Shown here in pieces: positions 18,466 through 37,078 of a stretch of DNA of 64,000 bases. The position numbers were made by a program, and so were the translations under genes. Origin of the DNA: Leucosporidium creatinivorum (Eukaryota > Basidiomycota > Microbotryomycetes > Leucosporidiales > Leucosporidiaceae); NCBI GenBank assembly GCA_001600635.1, contig BCKL01000006.1, forward strand, positions 945,967 to 1,009,966, given 5' to 3'. Position 1 is the first letter of the stretch; every line of letters begins with the position of its first letter. The notes under the pieces were generated by a model. That model saw only the letters and a program-made list of their open reading frames with translations. It had not been told where the DNA came from and ran no database searches.

Positions 18466-19445
18466 TCACAGCCCTACTGCTCCTTCCCCCTTCAGCATCT
18501 GCTCTCGGCGGTCTGACCTCTCGCGAATGACGGCGCGGCGCCGGCAAAGGTTGAGCAGCTGGGCAGCTAGCAAGGGGTGGAGACCCGCCGAAGGGGGGAT
18601 TTTTATCACAAGTAGACATCTCTTCCCTAGCATGACCTCGTTGTCCTTCTCCGAGGGTTTGAGCGGCTTGGGGGAGAGCGGGATGACCTCGGGCTCGACG
18701 AGATAGCTGAAGATGGCGCATTGGGAGGAGAAGTTGGTGCGAGTGCTGAGGTCAAAGGGAGTGAGGTTCCGGTCGCGGTCGAAGGTGCTGACTCTGTAGA
18801 AGAGTGGGCGGCAGGTGGTGGGCGATTTGGCGGTGCGTGAGAGCTCGCCGACTTCCTCGGCGCTGTCTCGTCGGAGGAGGATCTCGCGGGCGTTCGAGAT
18901 GAGCCAAGAGCGGGTAGTAAGATCCCCCTTCCAGCGGGAAAGGCTAGTCGCATGCCCAATGTCCTGCAGAGGCCAGTGAGATCAGCTTCGGCGGAGATGT
19001 TCAAAGCTCGGCAAAAAGACTTGCACTTCGAGCAGTCTCCTGAGACACATACGGGAGAACCCAATCGTTCAAGCTACCGGATCTGGAGGACTCGTCTGCA
19101 GAGGAAAGATCAGCTGAGACTGAGCCCTAGCTTGCAGCTCCATCGACTCACACTCGTTGCCGACCTCAGCCAACTTCTCGAGCTCTCCTTCGGTGAGATC
19201 CTCCTCATGCCACAGCGTTAAGCCAGTCGCACAGTACTTCTTATGCACGGGCCAGATCTGTAGTCGAGTACAGAAGCGGTCAGCGGAGTCCGGAGCCGAA
19301 GGGCAAGGAGTCCTCAGCCTCAGACGGCGAACGAAGGGCCGAGCTCACCAGTTTTGCGTGTTCTGCACAGCAATAGAAGGCTTCCTTGCCCTGCCGCAAG
19401 CCTTGACTTCGTTACAGGGCAGACGGCGCACTCCCTAGCAGTCAT
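18466..19445 (-). pseudogene. MYND-domain gene remnant, copy B (C-terminal frame still open)
   Basis: Relative of the intact gene at 35465-36434. Exon 1 carries the same two small deletions as copy A, so the MYND finger is out of frame. Everything after it is readable: exon 2 with IWPVHKKYCATGLTLWHEED, an exon with NDWVLPYVSQETARS that seems to use a GC donor (gcaagt), and a last exon of about 165 codons without a stop (18963 down to TGA at 18466-18468). It contains SRWKGDL, RSWLISNAREILLRR, YRVSTFDRDRNLTPFDL and FSYLVEPEVIPLSPKPL. Either a recent pseudogene or a gene that now starts downstream without the finger. Confidence 0.7.
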
Positions 19446-19592
19446 AATCCTTAGCAGCGAGTTTGAAGTCGAGACGAGCGAGAAGGAAGAAGGCAGAGAG
19501 ACGAAGTCGCTCCTTGCCCTCTTACGCTTCACCTCGCCTGCACAGCTTTGACTCGGGATGGAAGCGTTCAAGGACAACGAGTGCATCGTCTG
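18819..19592. repeat. Segmental duplication, copy B
   Basis: Near-identical to 10712-11495 in the same orientation, covering the damaged MYND gene, its promoter and the start of the next MYND gene. Confidence 0.85.
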
Positions 19593-20473
19593 CGGTACAG
19601 CAACGTCGACGCGTTGCTCGGGCTGTAGGAGAGTCGCCTTCTGCTGTGCCGGCCACCAAAAGATTGTGAGTCGAGCTTGCACCGCTCAGAGTGCGTCTTA
19701 CTGAGATAGCATTCGCTACAGATGTGGCCAGTACACAAGTGCTTCTGCGGCAAAGAAGGCTACACACCTCTCCCGCTCACCAAGGAGGAGATCAACTGGG
19801 CGCTCTCTCATCCTGGTCAGCTCCTACCGTCGGTTGCGCCCGTTCGCCAGCTGACCGTCCTCGGCTGGCACAGATCCTGAGCCCGCGAGAGATGTCCCAT
19901 TCCTCATTCGCCTTCTCAAGGCCCAAGATCCTTCGAAGGAGCAATTGGTGAGCCGCCCGATTTTCTCGCCAGCGCCGAGCGCCAGCTGATCCACGTCCAC
20001 GCTCACAGTCGGCCTACAACTTTTGCCTCCTACCCCTTCCCATCGTTCACGCCTTCGTTCGCAACTCCTGCCATGCCACCTACTACCCTGGCTACACGCA
20101 AGGCCTTACCCCTCCCCTCGTGCTCGCCGTCTTCGCCTGGATCTCTCACCCCGAATCGAGCTGCTACAGCAACCCTCAGACACCCAAGGACATCTCGAAA
20201 CACCTTTTGCTCAGCCAAGTCTTCATTCGCATCGCTTACACGGCCGCCTTGGTCCTTCGAGCTTCTTGGCGGGCGCGAGTCGGAGGGGATGCGACGGTGC
20301 AAGAGCAGAAGGAGTGGGCTCAGACGAGTCTGAGAAAGCTCGAGAAGATGATGGATGATCTCGGGGCTGGATTGGAGCCCAATTCAGAGCCGCTGAAGAC
20401 GTTCACCGGGAGCCTGAGAAGCTTCCTGGAAACGCCGAGGTGGCTCGTCGATGCTGGGTGCTGTGTAGCTTGA
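19558..20473 (+). CDS. MYND zinc-finger protein, copy 2
   Basis: Same design as the 11456 gene. The MYND finger has CIVC, CSGC, FCC, His, then after an intron MWPVHKCFC, followed by LTKEEINWALSHP and a helical C-terminal region. That region is specific to this copy, with CHATYYPGYTQGLTPPLV and a Cys-ending tail. Four exons: about 19558-19663, 19722-19814, 19873-19948, 20010-20473. The first ~45 bases match the 11456 gene almost exactly and then similarity drops quickly, so the two genes share a duplicated 5' end but old, different bodies. Head to head with the damaged MYND gene (112 bases between starts). Confidence 0.8.
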
Positions 20474-20662: not shown

Positions 20663-21469
20663 CTACACACCACCGGGCTGCTTGGCTGCCAAGGCGTACG
20701 CAGGCGGCTGCTCGACTCCTGCTTCGGCCGACGCCCCTTGCTCGGCGATGACTTCTTGAACGGCGGGGCGTGCTTGAGCGACGGGGGCTGGCCGTTGCAC
20801 CCTCACGGCGCGGATAATTGTAGCATTGCTCTGCTGTCCGCCGACTCGAACCGTCGGTGCGACTGCAAGATCGGCCCGAATAGCAGCCGTCATTTGAAGC
20901 CTCGCCGCCGTCTCCTCCTTTCTCGCCCGCTCTGCTCGGGTTTTAGGATCTACACAGCACCAGAAGATGATGAGGAAAGCACCCAAGATTCATCTCACGC
21001 ATATGCCCAAGATCTGCTCGCGAGTGTAGCGCGGCGCTCTGGGAAAGGAGCGATCAGCTCGGCGCCGAGCAGGAAGCGAAGAAAAGAGCTCACGAGCATC
21101 CATCGATCCCGTTAAGACCGTCTTGGGCTTGCTGAGGAGGAAGATAAACCACTTCCTTGTCATCGTCGCTGACCTGGAAGCGAATCCATTGTCCCGACTT
21201 GACGAACTTGCTGGCGTCAAAGTTCGACTGGCTCGAAGTCCGAAATGAGCCTACGGGCTCATATTCTTCGAGAAGGGTGCCGTTCCAGTCACCTACACCA
21301 TCATAATAAGGCGCTACAGTGTACTCAAATGGAACTTGCCGTGCGAAAGCGAGAGGGAGCCTGTAGTGCTGACGGGCGCGATGGATATAGAAAGCCCGTT
21401 GGTGCTGTTGGTAGCTAAGGCTCGTCGGTTGAGCGGAAAGAGCATGGGTAGAAGGCCGGTGGGAGCCAT
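20663..21469 (-). pseudogene. PY-tailed membrane protein family, member 1 (broken)
   Basis: Two-exon design shared with the members at 21756, 31814 and 33091: an ectodomain exon ending in GIDGC, then an exon with one membrane segment and a cytosolic tail ending PPAYALAAKQPGGV. Start at 21469 (MAPTGLLPMLFPL). Two lesions are seen. In exon 1, about 60 bases of the ectodomain are missing relative to the relatives and the frame shifts between the SLSLS segment and VPFEYT. In exon 2, the membrane segment is interrupted by TGA (20990-20992) between GICVR and ILGAFLIIFWCC. The intron is 21039-21093. The intact tail suggests recent inactivation. Confidence 0.75.
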
Positions 21470-21755
21470 TGCTGAGGCGGCTTGCGAGCGAGGGACGATC
21501 GCCGAGGTGGCTTGGGCTCGGTTTGTGAGATTGTGCAGGCGCTATGCGAGGTTGTCGGTGCTTCAATACAAGCTGAGAGGGTGCAGTCGACGAGCGCAAA
21601 GTGAGAAGAGGCCACAAAGCGACGCAGAGAGAAGAGCGAGGCGTCGCGAAGCTTAGCTGTCCCTTTCGGCAGCCCTCTGGCTGCCTCGCTGAGTATGACG
21701 TCGAGTGTGGATGATCGAGAGATGAAGTATCGGACTGATTGCACTGATACAGAGT

Positions 21756-22564
21756 CTACACTCCTCCTGCAGCCTTCCCGCTCAGCTGCGCCTCGTAGCT
21801 CGGCGGGGTCTCCTCCTCAATTCTCGCTCCACCTGTCCCCGCCTGTCCGGCTCCACCAACGCGAATCGTTTCTCGAGTGACCGCACGCTCATTCGTTTGC
21901 ACTACACGCGGCGCTTGAGGCGTCTGACGAGTGACGACCAGCTCGGCGGGGACTTGGGCGTTGATTCGGCGCCTACGCCGCTCCCCAAGGTTGGCCACAA
22001 TGCTAAGGATTCCCGCGAGCCCAAGAAATCCCCCAAAGAAGCAGAGGAAGATGTAGCCGAGGGACCAGTCGTTGCTCTGCGGGATGCTGTGGTATGAAGA
22101 TCAAATCAGCGCGAGTACGAGCGCACTGGAGGGGAGGAAGGTCACCTGCACCCATCTACCCCATCCGTCCCATTCTTGACCTCGCGCACCGAATCAAAGC
22201 TGATCGACCCTCCTCCGTCCTGCACTCGGAGCCGAACCCAGCTCTCCTCCGGCAAGCTCGCTGTAACATTCCACCCGGCCGTTCCCGCTTCGGGATATAC
22301 GCCGAGAGAGCCCTCGAGAGGAGGATTATAGAACGAGCCGTTATAGTGCGATGTGGGCGGGTAGGCTTGCCACGAGAGTTGGAAAGGAGGAGCAGAGCCG
22401 CCGTAGGAGACGTTGGCGGGTGTACAGGTGATGTCGCCGTTGGAGATGGAGAAGAAGGGTTGTTTGAGGGCGCTGCCAATGAAGGGGGTCGAGTAGTTGA
22501 GCGGAGCGCGCGTGTTGAGAGATGCGTAGTTCGGCGAGAGGGCGAGAGGTGGAGCGGGAGCCAC
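21756..22564 (-). CDS. PY-tailed membrane protein family, member 2 (GTG in place of ATG)
   Basis: Exon 1 (22146-22564) encodes an ectodomain with N-glycosylation sites (NYS, NVS, NGS, NVT, NGT) and the pattern ITCTPANVSYGGSAPPFQL, WVRLRVQD, ending DGVDGC. After a 59-base intron (22087-22145) exon 2 encodes one membrane helix (YIFLCFFGGFLGLAGILSIV), an Arg cluster (GERRRRR) as stop-transfer, and a cytosolic tail ending PPSYEAQLSGKAAGGV. Relatives begin with ATG-GCT-CC (MAP); here the matching codon is GTG in a favourable gccGTGg context and no in-frame ATG lies nearby. Expression may need non-AUG initiation or a hidden upstream exon. Confidence 0.65.
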
Positions 22565-22988
22565 GGCGAGAGGTGCAGGAGAGGCGAGTAGCTCGAGGGT
22601 GGGAGTTGATGAAAGCGATGCAGTACGCTGAGAGGTTGTGGTTGGAGGAAGAGAGGCGAGGAAGTTTTGCGTCAGAGCGCGGGAGCGCTCTCGGAGCTCT
22701 CCTCATTTGACGCCAGCGAGCACCTCCTAGCTTTAGATGGCGCCGACGCTGAGTCGCTTCGATGGTAGATTTCGATGAGGACGAGCTCGCGCGATGGGAA
22801 CGAGGAGGGCCGAGAGCCGATGCGAGCCGGTGTGCGGGCATGCGCATCTGCGAGAGTCGAGCCGAGGTCAGCGAGGCGCAGAAGGGAAGAGGGCGAAGCT
22901 ACTAGCGCACTCGCCGATTACATGAAGAAGTCCAGCTCCTTCTACAACCATTCGAATCGAAGCTCTACTCGACCTCGGCGCGGACCCC
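22565..22988. other. Intergenic stretch
   Basis: Upstream region of the minus-strand membrane gene and downstream region of the SET gene. No gene or repeat was recognised. Confidence 0.4.
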
Positions 22989-24006
22989 CTACGTCCCTCC
23001 GGCTTGCGCATGCCACTGCTTCATGAATGCCTCGGCCATCTTCTCCCGCTCGATATCCTTCTTGGCACTCTCCTCGTCGCTGAGCGAGCACCACGAGCAC
23101 TGGCATTCAAACCTCCACTGCGAAGAGCGAAAGCAAAAGGGTCAGCTCGGCGCTCACGGCACGGCGTCGGAATCCAGGCAAAGAACTCACCTTGACCAGC
23201 AGCTCTTCTCTCCGTTCCCTCCGCTTCTGAAACGGCACAATGTACGTCACGCAAAGCTCCTCGCCTGCCTTGACCGCCCTCGTCGTCCGAACGCCGAGCT
23301 CGAATCGCTGCCAATCCCACTCCGGTCGAGCGTTGGCGTCGCATGCATGGTTCAGACGACTGTAAACTGGGAAGACGCCGGTATAGGTGACCGGGTCGGC
23401 TGCGTCTCCAGCGCCTTCAAAAGAGATTACAGGTGCTCCGTTCGTTTCGATTCGACCGAAGATGGTCTCCGAGCCAGCGAAGCAATTGCTGAGGTCGAGG
23501 AATTGGCGTTGATGGTCGAATTCGAGGTGAGAGAGGGCGTGGGTGAAGATGTCGTTGGCTTCCTTGCGTGAAGGTCCTCGGTCGGAGGGATCAAAGACGA
23601 GAAGCGGTCGGTCGACGAGGACGAGCGAGTTGGGCGGTAGATCCCGCTTGGCGAATAGTGCGAGACCCTTCTTGGCCGTGGAGCGGATCTCGTACGCTGG
23701 TGAAACGTTGGCTGAGCCGAGGAGGGGTGGAGGTGGCCGAGAGGCGAGGAGAGCGCGAGAGGCGGCGGTGACGAGGAGTCCCGTGCTGGCGGTTGGTGAG
23801 GCTGGAGTAGGTGCGGGCGAAGCAGGGAGGAAGCTCCAGTGCAATGTCGACGGCGAGTCTCGAGGTGAGCTGGCCCAGCCTGGCGGTGCCGCAGCGAGAG
23901 GAGGGATGGGCGCTGCTCTTGAGGTTGCTGGCTGTTGGGCTGCAGCTGGGGTGGGCTTGGGCTGAGCAGGCGCAGAGCTCTTGCCGCTCAAGAATCCTCG
24001 TTTCAT
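22989..24006 (-). CDS. SET-domain protein (SMYD/Set5-like, without MYND)
   Basis: SET domains transfer methyl groups from S-adenosylmethionine to lysines. After a Pro/Ala-rich N-terminal ~85 residues, the SET domain starts at YEIRSTAKKGLALFAKRDL, runs through a helical insert and SNCFAG, and reaches the catalytic core SRLNHACDANARPEW and the conserved Tyr in ELCVTYIVP. A post-SET zinc site follows in exon 2 as FECQCSWC. Two exons joined at 23118-23190. The start at 24006 (MKRGFLSGK) is the first ATG in frame. The histone or non-histone substrate is unknown. Its position among MYND genes is notable because SMYD proteins combine both domains, but here they are separate genes. Confidence 0.83.
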
Positions 24007-24970
24007 GTCGGTCGAGACGGGCGAGTGATGTGTAGGAGGGGAACTTTCTACGCGTCCCAAGCTCTTCCTCTAACGTCTCGCTGCTCGGACCTCGACTCGC
24101 CTACACCTTCTACAGAGGCTCTCTGATACATTGGGCAGTATCTACTTAGCTCCTGCTGCTCTCTCTACCGGTCAATTGGCCCGCTCGGGCCTTCAGCAGC
24201 TCCGCCGTCGAAGGAGCTCAGTCACAGCTCGCTCTACCTCTCCAAATATAATTGCAGCGGATGGCGCCTGTGAGTAGGCAGTTATCTTCTCTGGGCTTAG
24301 CTCAGGGCACACGCCCCCATCTACTCCGTCGCCGAAATCAGCTCGGCGAAGGGGGTTGTTCACCGCTTCTGAGGAGCTAGCAGGAGCTCGGCTCACTGCC
24401 AGCTCCTATTGAGCCACACATCTTTGCCCTCAACATATGTGGGCACCGCCAGATACCCCTCAACCCGCCCCCTCGACAGCTCGGCGACCCTTTCGCCGAA
24501 CCTTTCCTCGCCGAATAGCAGCTGAAACACGGTGAGATCGACGGGGAACCTGCCAGTATGTACTGCAGCGGAGCGCTCAAGATCACTTGGCCTACTCGCC
24601 CCTCCTGGACCCAATCACGGCCGAAGGAAACGCTGCGACGGGTCAAGCCTCGAGCGCCGAGCGCCGAATACATCTCAGCTCGGTCTCTGAAAGCTTTGAT
24701 GGGCTCTACGTGGTCTTGTGTAAGTCTTCTAACAGCTCTTGACTGTCGACGGTGGCCGACCAGCGCTTGCAGGACGCAGCTCGAGTCGAGACTCTCAGAG
24801 CAAGATCGGTCGAAAGCGCTTCCGCTGACGCTTTCCTCTCTCCTCCTCACTTCTTCGACAGCCAGATCAGGTTCCTGCTCGTACTTCCGGCGAGCTTCAC
24901 TCGAAGCCAGAGCCCTCAACAACTAGCAGCGCTCCCACCGCTCTTCGTCTCAGCTGCTCACCTCAGCAGC
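24007..24970. other. Intergenic stretch with a possible small minus-strand gene
   Basis: On the minus strand, 24614-24393 reads as a compact stretch (RFPVDLTVFQLLFGEERFGE, then VEGYLAVPTYVEGKDVWLN) with an intron-like acceptor before it (cttgacccgtcgcag near 24634). No start could be fixed and no family was recognised. The rest shows nothing. Confidence 0.3.
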
Positions 24971-25700
24971 ATGGCGCCCGCATTGCTCGCCCTCCCCGTC
25001 AAGATGGCCGACATCCTTACTGCAGCAACCTCCAACCTTGCTCCACCCTATCTATTGATCAAGCCATTAGACTACAGAGTGTCCGATCCAGTTGACCACA
25101 GCTTCCTCTGGACTTCGCACGACAACGTCGATTGTCCATCGCTCAAGCTTGTGTACGGCGGTCTTCACCCTCCTTTCACTATCCGTATCAGCAATCCTTA
25201 CGCCACCTCTCAAGCTGTCAACGCCTCGGTGTCCTTCTCGGCGGAGCTCGGCCCTTTCGAGAACAGCGGGGACGTCGATTGGAAGGTCATCTCGCCTCCA
25301 GATCTATGGCTTCAGGCTACTATTATCGATGCGGTGGGATCTGAAACTGCTAAACCCCCGATTTGGGTCCGGGAGGGCACCTTGAGCAAGCCCTTTGCTA
25401 GTAAGCTTGGGGCTCGCCGAGGTCCCGACCAAGCTTTTGCTAACCCTTGCTCTTCGTAGGAACGCGTCGCTGATAACGGGGAACTGGATCGGGGAAATTC
25501 TCATCTACTTTCCCTTCGTTGGACTTGCCTTGATTGGCATCATCTTGGCGGGTGAATGGGTCCAGCAGCGGATGCGGGAGTTGGCGCTGCAAGGACGGTT
25601 CGGAGCGCGCAAGCAGATGGAAGAGCAGGGGAGGAGAGCAGAGGAGGAGGCTGAAGAGGTACGGTGGAGAGAGCGGGAAGGAAGCCGTGAGCCCGCGTGA
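24971..25700 (+). CDS. Single-pass membrane protein of the same ectodomain family, member 3 (no PY tail)
   Basis: Exon 1 (24971-25400) encodes MAPALLALPVKMAD and an ectodomain with CPSLKLVYGGLHPPFTI and LWLQATIID. Exon 2 (25460-25700) encodes NASLITGNW, a membrane helix (ILIYFPFVGLALIGIILAG) and a charged cytosolic tail of Arg/Glu/Gln with likely coiled coil. The Cys...YGG..PPF pattern is shared with member 2, so the ectodomains look homologous. This gene and its neighbour at 26240 lack the PPxY/GGV tail and form a subgroup. No function is known. Confidence 0.75.
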
Positions 25701-26239
25701 CGAGATGTGCAAGCGTAGCCTTGGTCGAGTCGGCGCAATCGAAGCTCGGCTTTCTCGGCGCTCATCTCGACGAGGGTAGACTTATCTGTGGCAGTTCCGA
25801 TGCTGTCGGAGATAACACAAAGAGGTCACCAAGATCGGATACTAAGGAAGCCAAATGCTCGAAGCAGCTATGTCTGGCGCTTCCTCGAAGCTCAGCGACC
25901 CTTCGCCGAGATGCTGCCTCGCGAATTCGATGGCTGGAACACTACACAGTGCGACCGCGATGTAAAAGAGCGGTTTCTTTCGCTCTCCGAAAAGCTCGGG
26001 CGCGCTCCTGCTCCCGCCTGCGCCCGTCCACGACTGAGGCCCGAGGGGTTGAGCTCTGAGAGCGGCGCGTCTGAAGCTTGCCTTGCGTCCGCCTCTCTGC
26101 TCTCTTCCACCTTTTGATCGCACAGTACAGTACCGCACATCTATCGCAACGCGCTCGTGTGGCTCAGTCTCGCTCATATTACAGCCCTTGAGGATCAAGA
26201 AGCTCGGCTCGATCCTGCCCTTCAGTTCAGCCCAGCATC
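25701..26239. other. Intergenic stretch with an open frame of unknown status
   Basis: A plus-strand ATG ORF, 25800-26117, reads as ordinary protein in its first two thirds (SYVWRFLEAQRPFAEMLPRE, FDGWNTTQCDRDVKERFLSL) and then becomes low-complexity. It could be a small gene or a remnant; no family was recognised. Confidence 0.3.
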
Positions 26240-26899
26240 ATGGCGTGGCAATGGCTCGCCTCGCTCATGCGAGCCACCGACATCCAACAACCCTCAGCAG
26301 CCGACCTTGCTCCCCCTTACCTTTTCCTCAAATCGGAGCGTCGCTTCCTCTACACTTCGCATGACAATGTTGCCTGTCGTCCTTTGCGGCTCAGCTACGG
26401 CGGTCTTCACCCGCCGTTCACTATTCATTTGCGTAAGCCATATGCTACAGCTCTGCCTGCCAACGACTCGACGGCGACTTACGCTGCCCTCGGACCTTTC
26501 GAGGAGGACGGCGAGCTCGAGTGGACCGTCGTTTCCCCTCCGAGCCTATGGCTGCAGGCTACTATTGTAGACGGGAAAGGGCTAGAAAGCTCGATACCGT
26601 CCTTGTGGGTCGTGAAAGGGACCACTCGTTTCGTCTCGGACGGAATCTGCTGGTGAGCCCCTACGCCGAGCTGCCGCCCGACCGAGCTTTCGCTGACTCT
26701 CGACCTCGCTAGGGATTCATCGCTCATCACGGGCGACTGGGTCGCGGAGGGTTTCCTCTACTTCTTAATCGCAATGCTGGCCCTCCTCCTTGGTGCCATT
26801 GGGATGTGCTGCTGGGAGGACGCGAGCGATCGACGAACGCTCCGAGCTAAGCGGCTGGAGAGGGAACGGGAGGGAAGGAAGGCAAAGGAGGCCGAGTAG
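26240..26899 (+). CDS. Single-pass membrane protein of the same ectodomain family, member 4 (no PY tail)
   Basis: Tandem partner of the 24971 gene. Exon 1 (26240-26652) encodes CRPLRLSYGGLHPPFTI, LGPFEEDGELEWTVVSPP and LWLQATIVDG; exon 2 (26713-26899) encodes DSSLITGDW, a membrane helix (GFLYFLIAMLALLLGAIG) and a short basic/acidic tail (RRTLRAKRLERERE). The two genes are clearly duplicates: same intron position, same SLITGxW after the intron, same orientation. The ectodomain faces outside if the N-terminus is translocated; a classical signal peptide is weak. Confidence 0.75.
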
Positions 26900-27096
26900 T
26901 GTGGGAGATGCGGTATGCGCGAGCGTGAGCATGGAGCAGTAGTAGTCGGCGTAATCGAATTCTCATCACCGAGCTCCTCTCGGCGCTCGTCTCCTCGAGA
27001 GATATATCGTCCATGGCGATACAATTGCCATCCGCAAGAACAAAAGAGAGAAGTTACCAATACTACACGAGATCTACACCGCTCGACCCTGCACCG

Positions 27097-30000
27097 TCAC
27101 CCCGTCCCTCGAATCCTCCTCCCCGTCCGTTCCCTCTCCCTCTCCCTCCACATCCTCCAACAAACGACCGTCGACAACGCCGCCGAAACGCCTCCAATCC
27201 TAAAGATCATTCCCAATGCATCCCAATCCTTCCCTCCCTCCTCCTCGACCGCAGCTCGGAAAGCGAGCCTCGCGAATTCGCCTAAGCGATCGTCGACGAA
27301 GGTCGTGTTTGGCGGTGTGAGGGGGACGGTAGAGGAGGGATGACCGCCTGAGGAGATTACCGAGTGGTGAGGGGCGAAGAGGGCGAAGATGAGGGAGGAG
27401 AGGGCGGTGACGAGGAATTGGGGGAGGACGAGGTAGATGTTGTGACAGCTGTAGGAGTCAAGGAGAGGGGGAGGGTTAGCTGAGCTCGGCGCAGTAGGAA
27501 GAGAGAGAGAGACGACAACGAACCCGAGAATCACCCCCGCCTGATCGCCCGCCCCATCTCCCTCCCCTCCTCCATCATCCATCTCCCCCTCCCCCTCCCA
27601 CTCATCCTCATCACTTCCCCCCTCCCCACCTCCAAACGTAATCCTCGGCGGCTCAGCATACCCCCCACCATACACAGCCCTCGCACTCCCCGCGCTGCCC
27701 CTCCTACTCTCCCTCCCCTCGTACCCACCCTTCTCGCTCCCCTCCTCGCTACTCCCCCCGTCCGACCGCTCGAACGTATCGTCCGAATGCCGGATCTGCA
27801 GGACTGTAGGCGTCGTCCCTCCTCCTTGCTGTCCTTGCGCTAGAATCGTCGAAGTCGAAGCGAAAGAGTACGGATCATTATCGCCGAGACTGAGGTTCGA
27901 GGCATAGGGATCGTGGTTCGGTGGGTACTCGTAAGGGTGGGAGGACTCCCTCGATGCTGAGTTGTATTGTCGAGGTGACGGCGAAGGAGAGGGAGACCGG
28001 CGCTTCCTGTCGTCCAGCTCATCGGAGGAACGAGGGAAGGTCGACCGCTCGGGAGTGCCCCCGAGCGAGGTGGTGTCAAAGTACGCGCTCGTAGCGCTCG
28101 GCGGGGTACCCACCATACTCTCCTCCCCTCCTCCACCATCTTCCCTCCTACCCTCCGGCCTCGGATCCGGGAAGCCCCAACTCCCTCCCTCCTCGCCCCC
28201 TACCCCTCCCCCTCGCCGAGCTTTCGGCGTGTCCATCAACGGCGTCTTGCCGTTCGACATGGAGGGCTCGTAGTCCGACGCTTCCTCCATGATGGGAGAG
28301 AGGGCTGAATGAGAGTTATCGGCCCAGTGGGGGGAGTGGGAGTGGAGGGCGTGCGAGGAGGGCGAGGAGACGCCGATGCGGAGGATGAGGTCGCCGAGCT
28401 GCGAGCTCAAACCAGGTCAGCGAGCGCGCGAAGGAACAGGCGAAGTGAAACGTACGATGGCGAAAGGTGCCCAGTTGGTCACAGCCCACGAGAAGCCAGC
28501 AGCAGCGAGGATGAACGACGCGCCAAACACCGAGGTAGCGAACCAAGTCCCGATGAGTAGGGTAGCGAAGAGGGCGTTCGAGATGGTCCACAGCAGCGGT
28601 AAGCTGAGCCAAGCGACCGGCATAGTCGGTAGCATGGACTTGATCCTCTCCGTCAGAGTCTCGCCTTGGCCGAATCCCGTCGAGGAGCGAACGTAGGGCG
28701 AGTTGGGCTTTGAGCTGCTAGGCGAAGAGCTGGAGCCGGCGATGAAAGGGGGCAGGAGGATGGAAGTAGCGAGAGAGACGATAGCGTGCCATAGCATCGC
28801 TCGAGTGCCGGCTCGGGTCGCTGCGTCGCGGATGTCGAGAGGGGCAGAGGCGAGGTCGGAAAAGGTGGAGGTCGTTTGGACGTAGATTTCGGCGACCCAG
28901 GTGGTGCCGAAGAAGAGGACGGGGAACCAGCCGATCCAGGAGGAAAACTGTCGCGATCCTAGCGGTCAGCAAGAGAAGCGAAGCGCGTCAAACGAACGCC
29001 GAGTCGAGAAACGAACCTGGACGTTGAGGACCTGCTGGATCGGTCGAGGGAGGGTGCGCAGGGTAGTCCAGATGTCGAACATGGCTTTCATAGCTGGGCT
29101 CGAATCGTCGTCGGGTGTTCGGGTGTCTTCTCTCGAGATGAGGACTCGTTCCCGAACGCAGACTACCGTGATGGCGTGGGCTCCGCAGAGGAAGAAGGAG
29201 GTGAAGAAGGTGAGGACCTGTGAGGCTCGAAGGTTAGTTATAAGCTCGGCGCTCGAGAGAGATTGAGCTCACCTTGAGCTGCTCTCCGCCGAGGAAACCG
29301 CCGGTGAGGTAGACGAGGTCGAGTCCGCCGACCCAGTAACCGAGGACGGCTGGTGAATTCACAGTCAGCTGAGCCTCGCGGAGCACGATGTAGAACATCA
29401 GACTCACCTCCAATGCCATTCATCCTCGAAGCCCAGGCATTCGCAGCGGGTTGGAGGTGCGGCGCAATCACGTCGACGATGAGCGAGCGGTCCATGGCTT
29501 GCACGACGTTGATGCTGAAGTCGCTGTGGATCGAGAAGAGGGTTAGCCTAGTGTAAAGTTCAGCGAGAGCTCGAACGTACATCACGTAGACCGAGAGGAT
29601 AGCGAGAGCGATAGTAAGTCGTCCGTGCTGCGAAGCGGTGCGCCGAATGAGCTCTGGTCAGCGAAGGCCCAGAGCCGAGCAAGACAGGAACACTCACAAT
29701 AGCACCTCCGCTCTCCGCTACGAGCCCAGCGACCTCCTTTGACCATCCGAGCAAGAGGACTGCGAAGCTCGAGACGACACACCCTCCAATGATGAAGGGA
29801 CGTCTGCGGCCGAGGGACAACCTACAGCCGTCGGAGAGGACTCCCACGACAGGCTGTACGATCAAGCCGCTGAGCGGTCCTATTGGCGTGAAGAACCGAG
29901 GGTTAGCGAACAACGGGACGGGCTCTCACGAGGCGGGGCGCCAGCTGCCAGCTAGCCTGCTGCCAGCTAGCCTGCTGCCAGCTACTCACCTGCAAGGAAG

Positions 30001-30283
30001 ACGATGGCCATATGAGATTTTGATACGCCGAGGGAGAGCAAGTAAGGGGAAGCTTGGGCCATCTCACAACTCCACACGAGCTGTAGACCGAGCATTGAGA
30101 TGGTGAGAGCTAAGAATCGGCAGAACTGCGGCTAACGGAGGTAAATACACATTCAACCGAATCCTAGATATGCTGAAAGGTAGTTACCTGGGGAGCGTGA
30201 GGCGCTTGAGGCAAGAGGACGGCTCGACCGACCCAGCGAGAGCGGCCATGAGGGGAAGAGGGGAAAGCCGAGAGTCCCGTCAT
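27097..30283 (-). CDS. GPH/SLC45-type sugar transporter (sucrose/alpha-glucoside H+ symporter-like)
   Basis: Major-facilitator protein of the glycoside-pentoside-hexuronide/SLC45 branch, proton-coupled uptake of sugars such as sucrose or maltose in fungi. First exon MTGLSAFPSSPHGRSRWVGR (start 30283), then LQLVWSCEMAQASPYLLSLG, the signature GPLSGLIVQPVVGVLSD with LSLGRRRPFIIGG, and the second-half helices down to SWAVTNWAPFAI. A long hydrophilic insert of about 270 residues (27550-28300), rich in Ser, Pro, Gly, Asp and Glu, separates this from the last helices (IYLVLPQFLVTALSSLIFAL). At least eight introns. The long insert resembles regulatory loops of fungal relatives. Stop TGA at 27097-27099. 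Confidence 0.85.
29947..29984. repeat. 15-bp tandem repeat, 2.5 copies
   Basis: GCCAGCTAGCCTGCT is repeated in an intron of the sugar transporter gene. Confidence 0.9.
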
Positions 30284-30447
30284 TGAGGAAGGGAGCTAAA
30301 GGGCTACAGAGCCCTCCACCTAATAGCGCAGAGTCGAAGTTGGGAGACGACTGGAGACGAGCCCAGACGAGCAGACGGTAAGAGCCCAAGCGTCGTCGCG
30401 TTCAACTCAACTCTCTCGCTCTTCCCTTACGCTTCGCATTTCTCAGC

Positions 30448-31571
30448 ATGGGTATGTAGTCACTTTATGCACTCATTCGAGCACTAGCTAACCCTGCTCT
30501 ACTTCTACAGATCAACAGGTACGCTCCTGCAGCTTCTCAGCCTCTACCTTCAACCTGGAACTGACCTCTCCCTCTGCAGAACCGAGTCGGCAGCAAGTTT
30601 GGAGGAGGAGGAGTAGCAGGAGCATCAGAGCAGGCCATCGACCGAAGGGAACGGCTAAGGAAACTCGCCCTAGAGACTATCGACCTGGCAAAGGTGAGCT
30701 TCCAAGCCCGCCGCTCTCATCTCAGCGCCCGGCTAACGCTCTCTGCACCTCAACCAGGACCCCTACATCCTCCGCAACCATCTCGGCGGTCTTGAATGTC
30801 GACTGTGCTTGACCCTCCACACCAACGAGGGTTCCTACCTCGCCCACACGCAGGGAAAGAAGCATCAAACCAACCTCGCCCGTCGAGCCGCTCGTGATGC
30901 GCATGACCCGAGTCAGTATGCCCAGCAATTGGCGGCGCAGCAGGCGGCGCAGAAGGTTCAGGTGCAGACGAAGAGCTTCATCAAGATTGGTAGCCCAGGG
31001 TACCAGGTGCGTTTCGCTGACTACCGCTTTCGGGGTGGTGAAGGGGAGAGCTGATGCTGAATGGTGATGCTACAGGTCACCAAGGTTCGCGATCCTATTA
31101 CTGGACAGCTCGGCCTGCTGTTCCAGGTGCACTACCCCGAGATCAAGGAGGGCGTCAAGCCCCGGCATCGGTTCATGTCGAGCTTTGAGCAGCACGTCGA
31201 GGCCCCCGATCGGACATGGCAGTACTTGTTGGTGAGTGGAGTGTGCTCTTGATGCTGACAGGTCGTAGCTAGGTGGTGGAGTAGATCCAGAACTGACTTC
31301 ACCGACCGAACGCCTCGCAACAGATCGCCGCCGAGCCATATCAGACCATCTCGTTCAAGATCCAGTCTCGGGAAATCGACAGTACGTTCGCTCATCCCTC
31401 GTCCACTTCTTTGCCCAGCCCTCTTGCCCTCTACCGCGCTCGCTCGTGGCTCGCCGAACCCGCGCTGACCTCGCCTCCCTCCAAACAGGCGCCGAAGGCA
31501 TGTCGTGGGAGCACTGGGATACCGACACCAAAACCCTCTCCTTCCAATTCCTCTTCGCTCAGCAGCAGTGA
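30448..31571 (+). CDS. SF3A2: Splicing factor 3A subunit 2 (SF3A2/Prp11)
   Basis: Component of the SF3a complex of U2 snRNP, needed for prespliceosome assembly in the nucleus. Starts MDQQNRVGSKFGGGG, the hallmark N-terminus, followed by RRERLRKLALETIDLAKDPY and a matrin-type C2H2 finger (CRLC then SYLAHTQGKKHQTNLARR). The C-terminal half has VTKVRDPITGQLGLLFQVHY and the segment ending in WDTDTKTLSFQFLFAQQQ. The metazoan Pro-rich tail is absent, as in other fungi. Exon 1 codes only ATG-G, and exon 2 is an 8-base microexon (30511-30518). Introns after it are at about 30519-30579, 30694-30757 and further on. Confidence 0.95.
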
Positions 31572-31813
31572 GCTTGCTCGGTCGATTCGGTTCGGTCGGC
31601 GCGGGAAGGAGGGAGGGAGCAGAAGGAGGAGGATTGGAGCAGCAGGAGGAGTGGAGAGCCATGCGTAGACTGGCTAGCTATAGTGCCAACGATAGTGTGT
31701 ACTTGTTTTCTCATCTCTTCGTCGTCCCTCATCTCGTTTCGTCTCTCGGCTCGACTCGCCGATTCGGCGCAAGATCCTCCATTCGACAGCTCGGCCAACT
31801 TGTCAAGCCTCAG
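31572..31813. other. Intergenic stretch between convergent genes
   Basis: Holds the 3' ends of SF3A2 (plus) and the membrane gene (minus). Nothing else was recognised. Confidence 0.4.
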
Positions 31814-32692
31814 CTAAACTCCACCAGGCCTCTTATGCTCCAAAGCAGCGGCATACCTCGGTGGATGATCCTCCTCGACCTCTGCCTCCCGCTGCTCCAC
31901 CCTCGCCTCGGCGATGTCCTCCTCGCGCTCACCCATTCTTCCCCAGGGATTGAAGTCCTCCGGCTCATCTCGCACGATCAGGGGCGGAGGAACCACCGGC
32001 ATTGGTACGGGCGCAGGCTGCCCCCCTTGCCCCGCCGGCGTCTTCTGCTCGACCGCCTCGAGCCTCCGCTTGCGCTTGCGATCACTCCAAGTGCAGAAAG
32101 CCCAGATGAGCAAAGCCGCGGCCAAGCAGCTTGCTATATAGATGCCGATCTTTTGGCCGTTGGTGAAGCGCGGTCCTCTACGAGCGAGAGGTGAGGATAA
32201 GTTCAGCTCCAAGCTCATCGCCGAAGGGGGGTAGCAGGGTCGTTTGCGACCTGCGTTGTCGAGCGAGATCACTCACGTGCACCCGTCTACTCCTCGCTTC
32301 CCGCTTTTCACCTGCCAGGCTCTATCATACGCCGCCTGCCCCAGGGTATCATCCGTCACCATAAACCTGACCCACCTCCCCGATCCCACAGCATCCAGGT
32401 CAAAGTCCACCGTGTTCTCTCGGAGATAGTAGCCTTGCGGTTGCTCGGCGGGAGGTAGACTATCGTCACAGCCGTCGCCCTGTCTGTAGGACGAGGGAGC
32501 GATGCTATAGGAGACGATGAGCGGCAGGTTTTGGCCGTGCAGCGAGACGGGGATGAGGGGGCAGGACACGCTGCCGGCGTTGATAGAGATGTGCCCTGAG
32601 GTCGAGGGTCGGACAGCTATAGATAGTGAGGAGGTGCTGTTGGACACTGGCGGCGAGAAGTCGCGTTTGTGAGCGAGGGCTGAAGGAGCCAT
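31814..32692 (-). CDS. PY-tailed membrane protein family, member 5
   Basis: Exon 1 (32277-32692) starts MAPSALAHKRDF and encodes a secreted-side domain with NSTSS, SVSCPLIPVSLHGQNLPLIV, WVRFMVTDD and the terminal RGVDGC. The intron is 32178-32276 (phase 2, as in the relatives). Exon 2 begins GPRFTNGQKIG, followed by one membrane helix (IYIASCLAAALLIWAFC), a basic cluster (RKRKRRL) and a long Pro/Glu-rich cytosolic tail ending PPRYAAALEHKRPGGV. The PPRY is a PY motif of the type bound by WW domains of Nedd4/Rsp5 ubiquitin ligases; that link is family knowledge, not shown here. Confidence 0.78.
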
Positions 32693-33090
32693 TTCGGATC
32701 GGAGGGGGCTCGGCGAAGATGAGAGGGTGGTGAGTTGACGGCGAGGCTGCTGAGCTGTTGGGCAGTGCTATGATATAGTAAAGACGAGCGGAAGGAGTCG
32801 AAGGGTGAAGACGTCGAGGCAGAAGCCGGACAAGCAGCGAACACAACGTCAAGTTCGATCGACGCCGGGTTTTGCCTCTTGGAGTCTTTCGAAGTGCTGG
32901 CGTTCAGCAGGGATGTCACTCGCTACAGGAGGCTCTCTAGCAGTCTGAAGTGGTCGTTGAACCTCTGAGCAGGCTATTCTCGATGAGCTGCCCCTGAAAT
33001 GAAGCTCGGCCCAAGCTTCGGCGCTGGGAAAAGGATAGGTCCAGTACAGTTGTGAGGGGGATTATCCGCAACTAGAGTCTTCACCAATCT
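32693..33090. other. Intergenic stretch between two tandem membrane genes
   Basis: Upstream region of member 5 and downstream region of member 6, both on the minus strand. No other signal was recognised. Confidence 0.4.
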
Positions 33091-33940
33091 CTATACACCT
33101 CCTGGTACCTTTGGATCGATACCATAAGCTGGTGGTTGCTCCTCCTCCTCTCTCCTCGGCGCCTCGACGATATCGGGCTCCTCCCTCCGAGTCGGCGGCT
33201 CCTCGACGACTACAGGCGGCTGCTCCATTTCCACCACTGGCGCAGGGAGAGGAGGAACAAACACCGGTAGTTGATAGGCGTGATGAACCACCGGGGGAGG
33301 GGCTGCGCCCTTGGCAAGCTTTCCCCTCCTTACTCTCGGCGCCCGCTGCTTGGTGCAGCACTGGCAGCACCAGCCGAGGAAACCGCAGAAGCACCAACCG
33401 AGGATGACAGCGGTGAAGGGGAAGACGAAGACGCTGAGCCAGATCAGAGCGGTCTTCACGGCTGCAGAGATGCGAGGCTTGCTGCTCGGCGAAGGGATCA
33501 GCTCGGCGATGTGAGGAGAGCGACAAGGGAGCTCACGTGCAGCCGTCCACGCCTTTCGATCCAACCTTGAGCTGATAGGGTACAGAGTAGGCTTCTGCCT
33601 TGCTGCTGTCCTGCACTACGAACCTGACCCATCCGCCTTTCAACGAGCTGAGAGCAAACTCGGCGGTGCCGTTCCGATCAAAGGAGCCTTGCGGATCGTC
33701 CTTGGACGGTGTGGTACCATTCCACGGCTCGGAAGGGTCGTACGCCCGCGTGTAGGTGTATTCGACGACGAGGGGGAGGAGATCGCCAGTGTAGGAGACG
33801 GTGCTGTTCGGGCAGGAGAGGGAGCCGGAGGATATGGAGAGGTAGCCAGTGCTGGAGGGGGTGAGCAGGGTGATGCTGAGGTTGGTGGTGAAGTTGGTGA
33901 CGGCGAGTAGAGCTGGTGTGAGGAGGGCGAGAGGAGCCAT
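33091..33940 (-). CDS. PY-tailed membrane protein family, member 6
   Basis: The best preserved family member. Exon 1 (33537-33940) starts MAPLALLTPALLAVTN, a hydrophobic leader, followed by N-glycosylation sites (NFT, NLS, NST, NGT), SLSCPNSTVSYTGDLLPLVV, GGWVRFVVQDSS and SKGVDGC. After the intron (33462-33536) exon 2 encodes one membrane helix (ALIWLSVFVFPFTAVILGW), a Cys-rich juxtamembrane stretch (CFCGFLGWCCQCC) that could be palmitoylated, a basic cluster, and a Pro/Glu tail ending PPAYGIDPKVPGGV. An upstream in-frame ATG would add about 80 residues not found in relatives, so 33940 is preferred. Confidence 0.8.
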
Positions 33941-34458
33941 GGTCGGCCTGAGGAAGTGGTCGCGACTCCGAGCGTCGAAGGAGGAAAGGGATCGCCGAAG
34001 GTGCTGATGGGAAGCGTATGTAGCTACAGAAGCTCGGTCGAGTCGAGTGGGGCGTCGAAAATGCTTGGAAGAGACGAAAAGGCAAGAGAAAGAAGAGCAG
34101 CCACGACCTCGCTCGCCCGCGCAGGGATGAGCGATTGGACGAGCACCGGACTGAGCTCGAACAGGGGAATCGGTCGACCATTTCATGGGACAGTGACGCT
34201 GCAGTGGCCGTACTGAAGAGTCGAAAAGTGCGAGTAGAGTCCGCGAGCAATCGTCTCGGTGGCAGAGTGGTCAAGTGGGGCAGCCTTGGCGCGGCGACAG
34301 ATGGCTGCCTGGGATCGCCGAGCCCTGCTCAGCAAGAACCTGAGGCGAGATGAGATGGCCTCTCAGCAACTAGACATGTACACCAGACTACTTCAGCTTG
34401 TTCTCCACCGCTACAGCACCACCACCTCCTTACCGCCCCGATTCGACATCTTCGGCGT
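33941..34458. other. Intergenic stretch
   Basis: Upstream of membrane member 6 and downstream of the MYND gene at 34459. One tRNA A-box look-alike occurs near 34260 but no tRNA. Nothing else was recognised. Confidence 0.4.
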
Positions 34459-35353
34459 TCAGCGCTGGCGCATCGCCACAATCGACTCGACGAGATCCCT
34501 CACCGGCCTGTAGCACAGGTCGCGCACCATCTCCGCTCGATCCTGCAGCTTCTCTTTCATCTCATCGGTCAAGCGTTCCAAGCGTGCCACGCCTTGAGTA
34601 AGGAACTCGGTCCGAACGAGCTTGTCGAGCGCCACCGCCCGCTCGATCTCTTGTTGCTGGAATACGGCGGCGAGGGTTTGGATGTAGACGCAGAGGGTGA
34701 GGACTTCTTCGAATACTACTTGTTGTTGCTTGGGGAAAGAGCGCATGCCAACGTCGACAATGCTGAGCTGCGAAAAGGGTCGAATGGAAACGGCGAAAGT
34801 AGTGTGGTACTCGGGGAACTCGGTGCGCTGGCATACAGTCCTGATGGTAGCACGTAGTTCGAGGTCGTTACTGGAATTGAGGATGTCCAGCGCAGACTGC
34901 AAACGAGGCAAAGGTGGTGAGCGCCGAGAGTCGTGTGGGAGGAGAACGTTCGGCGGCCTTACCGCCTGGCCGAGAGCAGGGTTCAACAGACGCTCGTGAC
35001 GCAATATCGCTTCAATTTTCAAGCGGGCTGCACCTGTAGCTTGTTGCGATCTCAGCGGCTACCGTTGAGCAGCTGTCGACGAGGCTCACTTTGGCCGAGC
35101 ATCCAGTCAAGCTCCGCTTGCTGCAGGGGCGGTTGCCGATATCCTTCCTTCCCGCAAAGGTGCTTGTGCGTGACCCATGACTGTCGAGGAGCAGTGATCC
35201 GACTCAGCCAGACTCGAAACAACGGCGCAGGCGGGTTGAGCTCACCAACTTCTGATGAGCCGCGCTGCAAAACGCCAGCTTCCTACAGCCCGAGCAGCAC
35301 TTGGTAGTAGCTGTACCGCAGACGATGCACTCCTTGTCCTTGAGAGCTTCCAT
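34459..35353 (-). CDS. MYND zinc-finger protein, copy 3
   Basis: Starts MEALKDKECIVCG, matching the 11456 and 19558 genes (MEAFKDNECIVCG). The finger continues CCSGC, FCSAAHQKL and, after an intron, SWVTHKHLCGKEGY, then AELDWML. The body is mostly helical (LKIEAILRHERLLNPALGQA; then, after an intron, a segment ending in KLQDRAEMVRDLCYRPVRDL). It differs from the other two copies. It is the minus-strand half of a head-to-head pair with 35465, only 111 bases between start codons, inverted relative to the two other cassettes. Function unknown. Confidence 0.8.
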
Positions 35354-35464
35354 CCCGAGTCGAGTTGAAGAGACGAGGTGAAACGTAAGAGGGCAAGCGA
35401 GCGAGCGCGCGATTTCGTCTCTCTCCCTTCTTCCTCTCGCTCGTTTCTCGACTCGACTACAGGA
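35354..35464. promoter_or_regulatory. Very short bidirectional promoter between two MYND genes
   Basis: Only 111 bases separate the two divergent ATG codons. The equivalent spaces in the other cassettes are 120 and 112 bases, and all three contain a shared aagaggg...cgaagtcg-like stretch, so spacing and sequence look conserved. Confidence 0.6.
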
Positions 35465-36434
35465 ATGGCGACTGCTACAAGGGAGTGCGCTGTCTGTCCT
35501 GCTACAACCAATCTCAAGGCCTGCGGCAGGTGCAAGGAAGCCTACTACTGCTCTACAGAACACGCCAAGGTGGTGAGTGGGAGCTCGGCCCTTCGTTCGC
35601 CCCGAGGAGAGGCTCCTCTATCCCCGCTTCGCACTCCGCTGACTGGCTTCTGTACTGGACTTCAGCTCTGGCCTCTGCACAAGCGCTTCTGTAAGACTGG
35701 ACTCGAGGTGTGGCACCAAGACGACCTCTCGGAGAAGGAGATCGACCGCCTTGAACATCCTGACGCAGAGGGTGAGTTCTGAATCAGGAAGGCAGTTGTA
35801 CGGAAACTGAGGTGCGCTTCTGACTCCCAGACCTGCTACGTCGCGTGCATAAGGCGACCGATTTGTTTGTTCAGCGGTTCCCAGAAGCGATGTCGAAGGA
35901 GGTGAGCTCGCTTTCAAGGCTCAAGCTCAGCAACTGCTTGTAAGAGCCTTCGAGTCTGACATCACCTTACATCCACAGTCCATCTGGAGCTCTACGGTCT
36001 CTACCAAGTGGAAAGGCGACCCACGCCTTCGCTCGTGGATCATCGCATTCGGGCGCAGCCTCGTATCGAGCCATCCCTCGCCCGAAGAGACAGATCAGCA
36101 GCCCTTTGGCCACCTCAGAGGCAACTTGATCATCCTCACATGCGACCCCCTCTTGAATCTTGCCGGCGCCGACAAAGCGGGCCGAGATCGCTTCCTCCTC
36201 CAGGGGTTTGTGGTCCCCCTCCTCCTCGACCGAGCTTACCAGCGAATGCCGAAGTCACAGCCGGACCTGCGCGACATGCAAGCTGAGGATGCCAAGCTCG
36301 TGCGACTTGCCATGAGCCGGGTGCGGGGTCTCGTAGACACTTCAGGAGCGTCGCCCGAGGTGGCGCAGCTCTTTCGCCGAGCAAGCATCTGGTTGGATAA
36401 GTGGGTGTCGAAGTACAACATACCGGGGTACTGA
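35465..36434 (+). CDS. MYND zinc-finger protein, copy 4 (intact relative of the two remnants)
   Basis: MATATRECAVCPATT begins a complete MYND finger: CAVC, CGRC, YYC, a His, and after an intron LWPLHKRFC. Then comes EKEIDRLEHP, a short exon (LRRVHKATDLFVQRFPEAMS), and a long last exon with WKGDPRLRSWIIAFGRSL, LIILTCDPLLNLAGADKAG and DKWVSKYNIPGY at the end. The pseudogenes at 10620-11335 and 18466-19445 align to it exon by exon, which makes it the reference for their damage. Four exons. The partner across the promoter is the 34459 gene. Confidence 0.82.
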
Positions 36435-36593
36435 GGTAGCCACTTACTTGATCTAGGCTTCTGCAACCCTTCACTGTCAACTTTCCATGCTTTTGAGAGC
36501 GAGCGAGCTCAACTCCAGTATCGCCGGGCTGGCCTCGCGAGCCGTCACCAGCTGTAGATGTCGCATAAGGGAGGTGGCAAGGGTAGGCGGCGT

Positions 36594-36601
36594 TATAAAT
36601 A
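36594..36601 (+). promoter_or_regulatory. TATA box upstream of the tail-only membrane gene
   Basis: TATAAATA lies 57 bases before the ATG at 36659. Such clear boxes are rare in the rest of this window, which suggests that the short gene has its own promoter. Confidence 0.5.
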
Positions 36602-36658
36602 GGCCCACTCTAGGCTTCATGGTGACTGTGGTATTTCAGCTCGTTCAAAGGACTGTTC

Positions 36659-37078
36659 ATGCCCCGGGCTGAAATTCTCGGCGCTGACCATCGACACATC
36701 CAGGGGGCCCGCCTCAACCTCGATGAGATTCTGAGCATTACCATCGCAGCCGTTGCGGTGAGGGCTCTTGTCACCGGCATTCTCTTCATCGCCCTGCGCA
36801 ATGCCTGGCAAGCTTGCAGAGCGACTCGGAGGAGGCCGGTCGACGATCCTCCTCGACTAGCAGCTGCGCCCCTTGTTGTTCGGCACGGGCTTCCCGTATG
36901 TGAGGTGGAAGAGGAAAGGGCGCTACCCCCTGGAGCTCGGAGGGTGTTGGAGAGGGAGAGGAATGTGGAGGAGCCGGCCGAGGAGGACATCGCCGAGGCG
37001 CCGGCTGGGGAGGCTGTGGGTACAGAGGAGCATCCGCCAGCGTATGCGTTGGATCTCAAGCCTGCTGGAGGAGTCTAG
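36659..37078 (+). CDS. PY-tailed membrane protein family, member 7 (tail-only form)
   Basis: Corresponds to exon 2 of its relatives only. It has a membrane helix (ILSITIAAVAVRALVTGILF), a basic cluster (RATRRRP) and a Glu/Pro-rich tail ending PPAYALDLKPAGGV, 139 residues from an ATG at 36659. The first ~15 codons correspond to the end of an old intron: a branch-like gcgctgacc and an acceptor-like acatccag precede the conserved exon-2 start. No ectodomain exon is found upstream. It may make a membrane-anchored cytosolic tail without an outside part, or be a remnant that happens to stay open. Confidence 0.55.
   Translation: MPRAEILGADHRHIQGARLNLDEILSITIAAVAVRALVTGILFIALRNAWQACRATRRRPVDDPPRLAAAPLVVRHGLPVCEVEEERALPPGARRVLERERNVEEPAEEDIAEAPAGEAVGTEEHPPAYALDLKPAGGV

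Follow-up and report, generated by a model that had tools for sequence, protein, structure and literature searches.

Five clustered genes of Leucosporidium creatinivorum sharing a PPxY and KxxGGV C-terminal end: candidate membrane adaptors of an Rsp5-type ligase

The locus considered here raises the question of what a short protein end may do when it is held constant in neighbouring genes whose other parts have diverged. It lies in a stretch of 64,000 nucleotides of the basidiomycete Leucosporidium creatinivorum (assembly GCA_001600635.1, contig BCKL01000006.1, here C6, positions 945967-1009966; below, the window), in a genome of 27.7 Mb and 63 contigs, where a previous reading made from the letters alone (the sequence-only reading) had placed five membrane-protein tails with PPxY and a terminal GGV. 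A six-frame scan of the window finds five open reading frames (ORFs), A to E, that finish in PPxY-(4 or 6)-K-x2-GGV and a stop, exactly at the five positions then given (20663, 21756, 31814, 33091 and 37078):

20663..20707, minus strand: terminal module of A, PPAYALAAKQPGGV and stop
21756..21806, minus strand: terminal module of B, PPSYEAQLSGKAAGGV and stop
31814..31864, minus strand: terminal module of C, PPRYAAALEHKRPGGV and stop
33091..33135, minus strand: terminal module of D, PPAYGIDPKVPGGV and stop
37034..37078, plus strand: terminal module of E, PPAYALDLKPAGGV and stop

The residues between PPxY and GGV number 7 (A, D, E) or 9 (B, C) instead of the 8-12 described earlier; the extreme GGV is conserved in all five, as had been claimed, and a Lys that had escaped notice is invariant in KxxGGV (5/5), at a constant distance from the C-terminus and 4, 6, 6, 4 and 4 residues from PPxY in A-E. 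The interpretation favoured here, with a probability of roughly 0.4, is that C, D and probably B are membrane-bound adaptors of Rsp5 carrying a second C-terminal signal, rather than cargo ubiquitylated on its own tail.

The combination of the two motifs is what sets these ends apart. In the six frames of the window, 1711 ORF ends are preceded by 20 open codons, and this stretch contains PPxY in nine of them, namely A-E and four without GGV. Similarity searches with tails proved insensitive, since the tail exon of D recovered itself, E and, weakly, three further places (on contigs C2, C14 and C27) but none of the tails of the other three genes, and a DNA pattern, AARNNNNNNGGNGGNGTNTRR (KxxGGV and stop), was therefore used genome-wide, which misses ends that lack the Lys or have an intron inside the last codons; the ORFs at the weak place on C2 have no GGV end, and it was set aside. 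All 48 places matching the pattern were read individually; a control pattern read backward gives 37 matches, so that KxxGGV sites by themselves are near chance. A true stop is present in 37 of the 48, and an in-frame PPxY lies within 100 codons in five of these 37, all five being A-E, which are confined to 16.4 kb and, in four of five cases, adjoin homologous ectodomains. A genome-wide expansion is not seen, PPxY occurring among KxxGGV ends in this cluster only.

The conservation of the module can be read at the level of codons. When the codons of the seven invariant residues are compared in pairs, their fourfold third positions match in 15 of 50 cases, no more than local codon use would give by chance (0.288), and the synonymous sites of the tail are saturated, while codon positions 1 and 2 match in 140 of 140 cases. 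Because the fourfold sites are randomised and the first two positions are fully conserved, the codon pattern indicates that the module is held by selection on the protein and is explained neither by recent copying nor by low complexity; in A and E, which are broken or incomplete, this signal reflects past history and not present use. The distal tails contain one Lys each, just C-terminal of PPxY, but their depletion in Lys (5 Lys, all of them the invariant one, vs 28 Arg) is not taken as strong evidence, since the Lys share of Lys plus Arg in other proteins of the window ranges from 5/37 to 20/45.

The sequence-only reading had proposed a variable outside joined to a constant inside, and this stands for the last ~14 residues only. 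Any two of B, C and D are 29-41% identical in the ectodomain, which bears out the divergence claimed for it, and 27-34% identical in exon 2; invariant columns amount to 28/130 in the ectodomain, 6/70 in the transmembrane (TM) segment and proximal tail, and 7/14 at the end, so that the TM segment and proximal tail are more variable than the ectodomain. The corresponding Fisher p-values (end vs proximal tail, 0.0008; end vs ectodomain, 0.04; ectodomain vs proximal tail, 0.03) are indicative, as the limits of the end were set with the motif already known and the alignment of proximal tail and exon 2 is gappy. In C, D and probably B the tail is Pro-rich, with a basic juxtamembrane stretch; of the Glu/Pro-rich composition described before, the acidic part is present in the distal tails of C, D and E (16, 13 and 16 Asp+Glu) and mostly lacking in A and B (5 and 6).

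Two, perhaps three, of the five copies look functional, as judged from their reading frames, which are laid out as follows (introns of B, C and D are predicted, those of C and D having been picked from several GT-AG candidates):

20663..20989, minus strand: downstream half of the TM segment and tail of A, frame open after a TGA; defective copy
21096..21335, minus strand: leftover ectodomain fragment of A, ending GIDGC
21756..22086, minus strand: exon 2 of B, TM segment and cytoplasmic tail
22087..22145, minus strand: predicted phase-2 intron of B, 59 nucleotides (nt), GTGACC...CCACAG
22146..22702, minus strand: ectodomain exon ORF of B, ending GVDGC, without in-frame ATG
31814..32177, minus strand: exon 2 of C, TM segment and tail
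32178..32276, minus strand: predicted phase-2 intron of C, 99 nt, GTGAGT...TCGTAG, picked among candidates
32277..32692, minus strand: ectodomain exon of C, ATG to GVDGC
33091..33481, minus strand: exon 2 of D, TM segment and tail; acceptor taken as GAGCAG, with GCCGAG 3 nt upstream as an alternative
33482..33536, minus strand: predicted phase-2 intron of D, 55 nt
33537..33940, minus strand: ectodomain exon of D, ATG to GVDGC, predicted nine-strand beta-sandwich
36640..37078, plus strand: TM-plus-tail exon of E, standing alone; possible phase-2 acceptor TTTCAG ending at 36639 (by eye)

Only C and D look intact, being open from ATG through GVDGC and a predicted short phase-2 intron to the TM segment and tail. 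The two-exon design earlier ascribed to all members (G[IV]DGC and a phase-2 donor) is present in A, B, C and D and absent from E, which has no ectodomain exon, none of seven ectodomain queries finding a match upstream of it. Exon 1 of B has no in-frame Met, with GTGGCTCC (GTG) at 22564, a site occupied by ATGGCTCC (ATG) in C and D, and an additional upstream exon is possible. Copy A is defective, its TM segment being interrupted by a TGA at 20990-20992, and has an ectodomain that is open in two different frames and recognisable only in the part matching residues 59-134 of D. Directly upstream of the ectodomain-less copy E, TATAAATA occurs at 36594-36601, and E might be transcribed on its own.

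The data support the first suggestion that these genes are local paralogues coding for single-pass membrane proteins whose C-terminal end is conserved. Hydropathy peaks of 2.18-2.42 mark a single TM segment in B-E, followed by a basic run in B and C. Sequons number 5, 1 and 5 in the ectodomains of D, C and B and are absent from exon 2 of these three, and exon 2 of A has one. C, D and probably B would then be single-pass proteins with the N-terminus outside and the C-terminus inside, and the PY motif would be cytoplasmic.

The ectodomain is present in at least eight genes with nine domains: A, B, C, D, two neighbours named F and G, a gene at 913-915 kb of C6 (L071 2345-3729) and one on contig C22 (L072 2673-4191). 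These numbers are a lower bound, each of the seven ectodomain queries (the ectodomain of G not being among them) having found a subset of the family. The two neighbours are:

24971..25700, plus strand: F, family ectodomain and TM segment
26240..26899, plus strand: G, tandem neighbour of F

The ectodomains of F and G are 52% identical to each other, and no PY motif is seen in the ORFs after their TM segments, which have short Glu/Arg tails. The gene at 913-915 kb ends in EQPPEYVGVAR and a stop, with a possible phase-2 intron of ~0.7 kb, and the C22 gene, apparently a single gene with two ectodomain repeats, has one TM segment and an LPTY tail, EEDLPTYQAAVDAGRKGYTVRDAA and stop. As PPEY and LPTY are retained in these two genes with other C-termini, PY is probably the older element of the tail; since a PY motif is found in 6 of the 8 ectodomain genes and KxxGGV only in A-E, the latter looks like an addition by the A-E cluster.

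The ectodomain itself is predicted to be a beta-sandwich of ~105 residues with two shared Cys (Cys per ectodomain exon: D 2, C 3, B 2, F 1, G 2). The best AlphaFold2 models of D and B, built on six-row alignments and followed by four lower-scoring models each, reach a predicted local distance difference test of 72.9 and 72.6 and a predicted template modelling score of 0.66 and 0.63, with nine strands in the same order. A Foldseek search of the PDB with these models, meant to reveal a significant match to a solved immunoglobulin-like domain, gives best E-values of 4.3e-3 and 7.7e-3, none at or below 0.001, and the best 50 matches are assorted, largely beta-sandwich proteins. No Pfam family exceeds the cut-off in ten pieces scanned (two sub-threshold matches, E 0.096 and 0.25), and a PDB sequence search with B, the sole query, returns no match. 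The domain presumably resembles a common basidiomycete one (Cys...GG.pPf...W...D.sG...Cys); among the matches listed from open-licence PubMed Central (PMC) literature, nothing relevant concerns a named basidiomycete family of this kind.

What the end may do can be approached from its possible readers in the same genome. A gene on contig C1 resembles Rsp5 in the pieces scanned (C2 1.6e-5, WW 7e-20, partial HECT 3.3e-9), its three WW matches (two above the cut-off, one below) lying inside 0.7 kb; its presence makes PPxY a credible Rsp5 ligand, as the sequence-only reading had supposed from the motif, and both PPxY and LPxY are PY motifs recognised by WW domains of the Nedd4 family (PMC8509885). 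A C-terminal Val is reported to serve as a signal for export from the endoplasmic reticulum and as a ligand of GRASP55 (PMC11470877), and a GRASP-like gene is present on contig C20 (GRASP55_65, 1.7e-23). In the proposed mechanism, PPxY would dock an Rsp5/Nedd4-type ligase, the ectodomain and TM segment would select membrane partners, and the tail would deliver Rsp5 to those partners for endosomal sorting; the free C-terminal KxxGGV would be a separate second signal, most likely for forward transport, of the C-terminal valine type read by COPII or GRASP. This transport use is a guess, prompted by the conservation of the Val (5/5).

The position of the Lys bears on whether the proteins recruit Rsp5 for others or for themselves. 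The crystal structure and assays of Rsp5 and Sna3 place a usable acceptor Lys about 10 residues from PPxY, with a sharp drop at nine, and a Lys N-terminal to PPxY is poorly used (PMC3738095). Since the linkers of A-E are only 4-6 residues long, short of the Sna3-type spacing, their only distal Lys would sit in a blind zone of the ligase; the linker is 8 in the C22 gene, and the gene at 913-915 kb has no Lys after PPEY. Because its spacing is fixed to the C-terminus and not to PPxY, the Lys appears to belong with GGV, and a Lys in the blind zone tied to GGV suggests that Rsp5 is brought in to act on partner proteins and not on its carrier, as has been proposed for Rcr1, Comm, PRRG4 and Shisa-like proteins (PMC5578492). 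The invariant Lys as ubiquitin acceptor of Rsp5 was the initial idea; it was dropped as the lead on the linker rule and is kept as a rival.

Several points weigh against the adaptor interpretation. The linker rule comes from in vitro work on yeast Rsp5, whose authors point out that it depends on context, a Lys at position 121 being also poor (PMC3738095); nor is it absolute, since all seven lysines of the PY tail of the wtf antidote can be ubiquitylated (PMC10721834). The juxtamembrane lysines of C and D leave room for ubiquitylation in cis, C has no evident signal peptide and D at most a weak hydrophobic start, and the best of 15 WW matches in the genome, 11 of them over the Pfam cut-off, is not in the Rsp5-like gene. 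GGV has Gly at -2 and is hence no canonical PDZ ligand. Use of a C-terminal Val in fungi is not described in the passages of PMC11470877 or in the related literature matched, and Comm and Rcr1 each have a ligase-independent function, so that a PY motif is no proof of ligase-dependent work (PMC5578492).

The alternative that survives these comparisons best, though it is on the unlikely side, is that A-E are surface receptors or adhesins whose own PPxY tail is ubiquitylated by Rsp5 and which reach the vacuole as their own cargo. In Sna3, which contains PPAY, Rsp5 attaches ubiquitin to one C-terminal Lys (PMC2171029), the distal tails all have exactly one Lys right after PPxY, a juxtamembrane Lys is present in A as well as in C and D, and the wtf tail points the same way; against this stand the short linkers, the poor use of a Lys before PPxY and the spacing of the Lys from the C-terminus. 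It is rather doubtful that ubiquitin is uninvolved and the proteins are cell-wall sensors, their tail binding another WW partner or a C-terminus-reading one such as a cell-wall or polarity scaffold: the other WW domains of the genome and an arrangement of beta-sandwich ectodomain, TM segment and flexible tail would fit, but the occurrence in the family of both PPxY and LPxY argues for a Nedd4-type partner. A decaying tandem family of little present function, with the tail left over from ancestry, is very unlikely: three of the five copies are indeed damaged or doubtful (A broken, B without in-frame ATG, E without ectodomain), but C and D are open and spliceable, and randomised fourfold sites beside unchanged first and second positions speak against it. 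That the tails are alike by chance or low complexity, an objection that the sequence-only reading had raised against itself and for which the poorly aligned mid-tail of few residue kinds might speak, has next to no probability and is already contradicted by the confinement of every PPxY-bearing KxxGGV end to 16.4 kb, four beside homologous ectodomains, and by seven residues invariant over randomised fourfold sites.

Within the adaptor interpretation, a stronger version is improbable: that KxxGGV-COOH serves as a fungal C-terminal sorting signal not yet described, combined with a PPxY whose only distal Lys lies in the blind zone of the ligase, yielding adaptors that recruit Rsp5 without being its substrates. 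In a bolder form, the end may be a masked di-glycine: once the last Val is removed, the chain would finish in GG, and this would switch on its turnover. For a GGV motif or end, open-licence PMC literature gives one match, on ferredoxin scaffolds.

As to the surroundings, a SET-domain gene (PF00856, E=4.8e-10) at 23107-24066 on the minus strand adjoins B, and MYND-finger-like genes at 19178-19670 and 35241-35745 flank the cluster at both ends in inverted orientation, with similarity over 121 nt at 79%, 100 nt at 70% and 46 nt at 85%. A zf-MYND match is found at 35369-35779 (E=1.4e-5), with a sub-threshold one (0.014) at 35204-35614, and none in the 36-residue piece scanned from the left flank. 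The inverted flanks suggest that a segment was duplicated in inverted orientation long ago, and the tail genes may belong to it.

Rsp5 adaptors help to decide which membrane proteins a fungus retains or destroys, and those described in fungi, in the literature matched, are the yeast ones (Rcr1 and the arrestin type) and an arrestin analogue of Cryptococcus. If the interpretation is true, a clustered family with a common ectodomain, a PY tail and a fixed second signal would offer a direct test of how adaptors escape their own destruction through lysine placement, and would also allow one to ask whether fungi read a C-terminal valine for transport.

Among known systems, Rcr1, Comm, PRRG4 and Shisa-like proteins are short single-TM proteins with L/PPxY that act on other membrane proteins (PMC5578492). 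Rcr1 and Rcr2 resemble A-E in being fungal and short, with one TM segment and a PY motif on the cytoplasmic side; the surface expression of an amino acid permease depends on the two proteins as regulators, and Rcr1 binds Rsp5, but their motifs are PPSY and VPEY (PMC5578492). A Pfam match to Rcr1/Rcr2 is not found, exon 2 of D giving no family and exon 2 of C only LapA_dom (E=0.25, below the cut-off), in a scan whose exon 2 pieces were those of C and D. Rcr proteins are not known to have such an ectodomain or a KxxGGV end. Commissureless and PRRG4 share the single TM segment, L/PPxY and Nedd4 binding, and strip another receptor from the surface, and Comm and two PRRGs have no signal sequence, as apparently C (PMC5578492); no sequence relation is claimed. 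Shisa-like proteins (STMC6) likewise have an ectodomain, a single TM segment and, in the group, PY motifs (PMC5578492), and Shisa6 adds a C-terminal PDZ-ligand end signal in a similar two-signal tail plan (PMC4778035), but their ectodomains mostly have six Cys, C*C*CC*CC (PMC5578492), in contrast to 1-3 Cys and a predicted beta-sandwich here. Sna3 has a PPAY close to its C-terminus, with one Lys after it (PMC2171029, PMC3738095), but with a 15-residue linker to the acceptor Lys instead of 4-6 (PMC3738095), and CD8 and Cx36 carry a terminal Val on a cytoplasmic tail, but without a KxxGG context in the passages of PMC11470877. The wtf meiotic drivers, considered for their PY motifs (PMC10721834), were rejected, being multi-TM proteins with N-terminal PY tails. 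Single-TM adaptors of Rsp5/Nedd4 with a PY motif are a known class, and what is new to the literature searched is the proposed second C-terminal signal.

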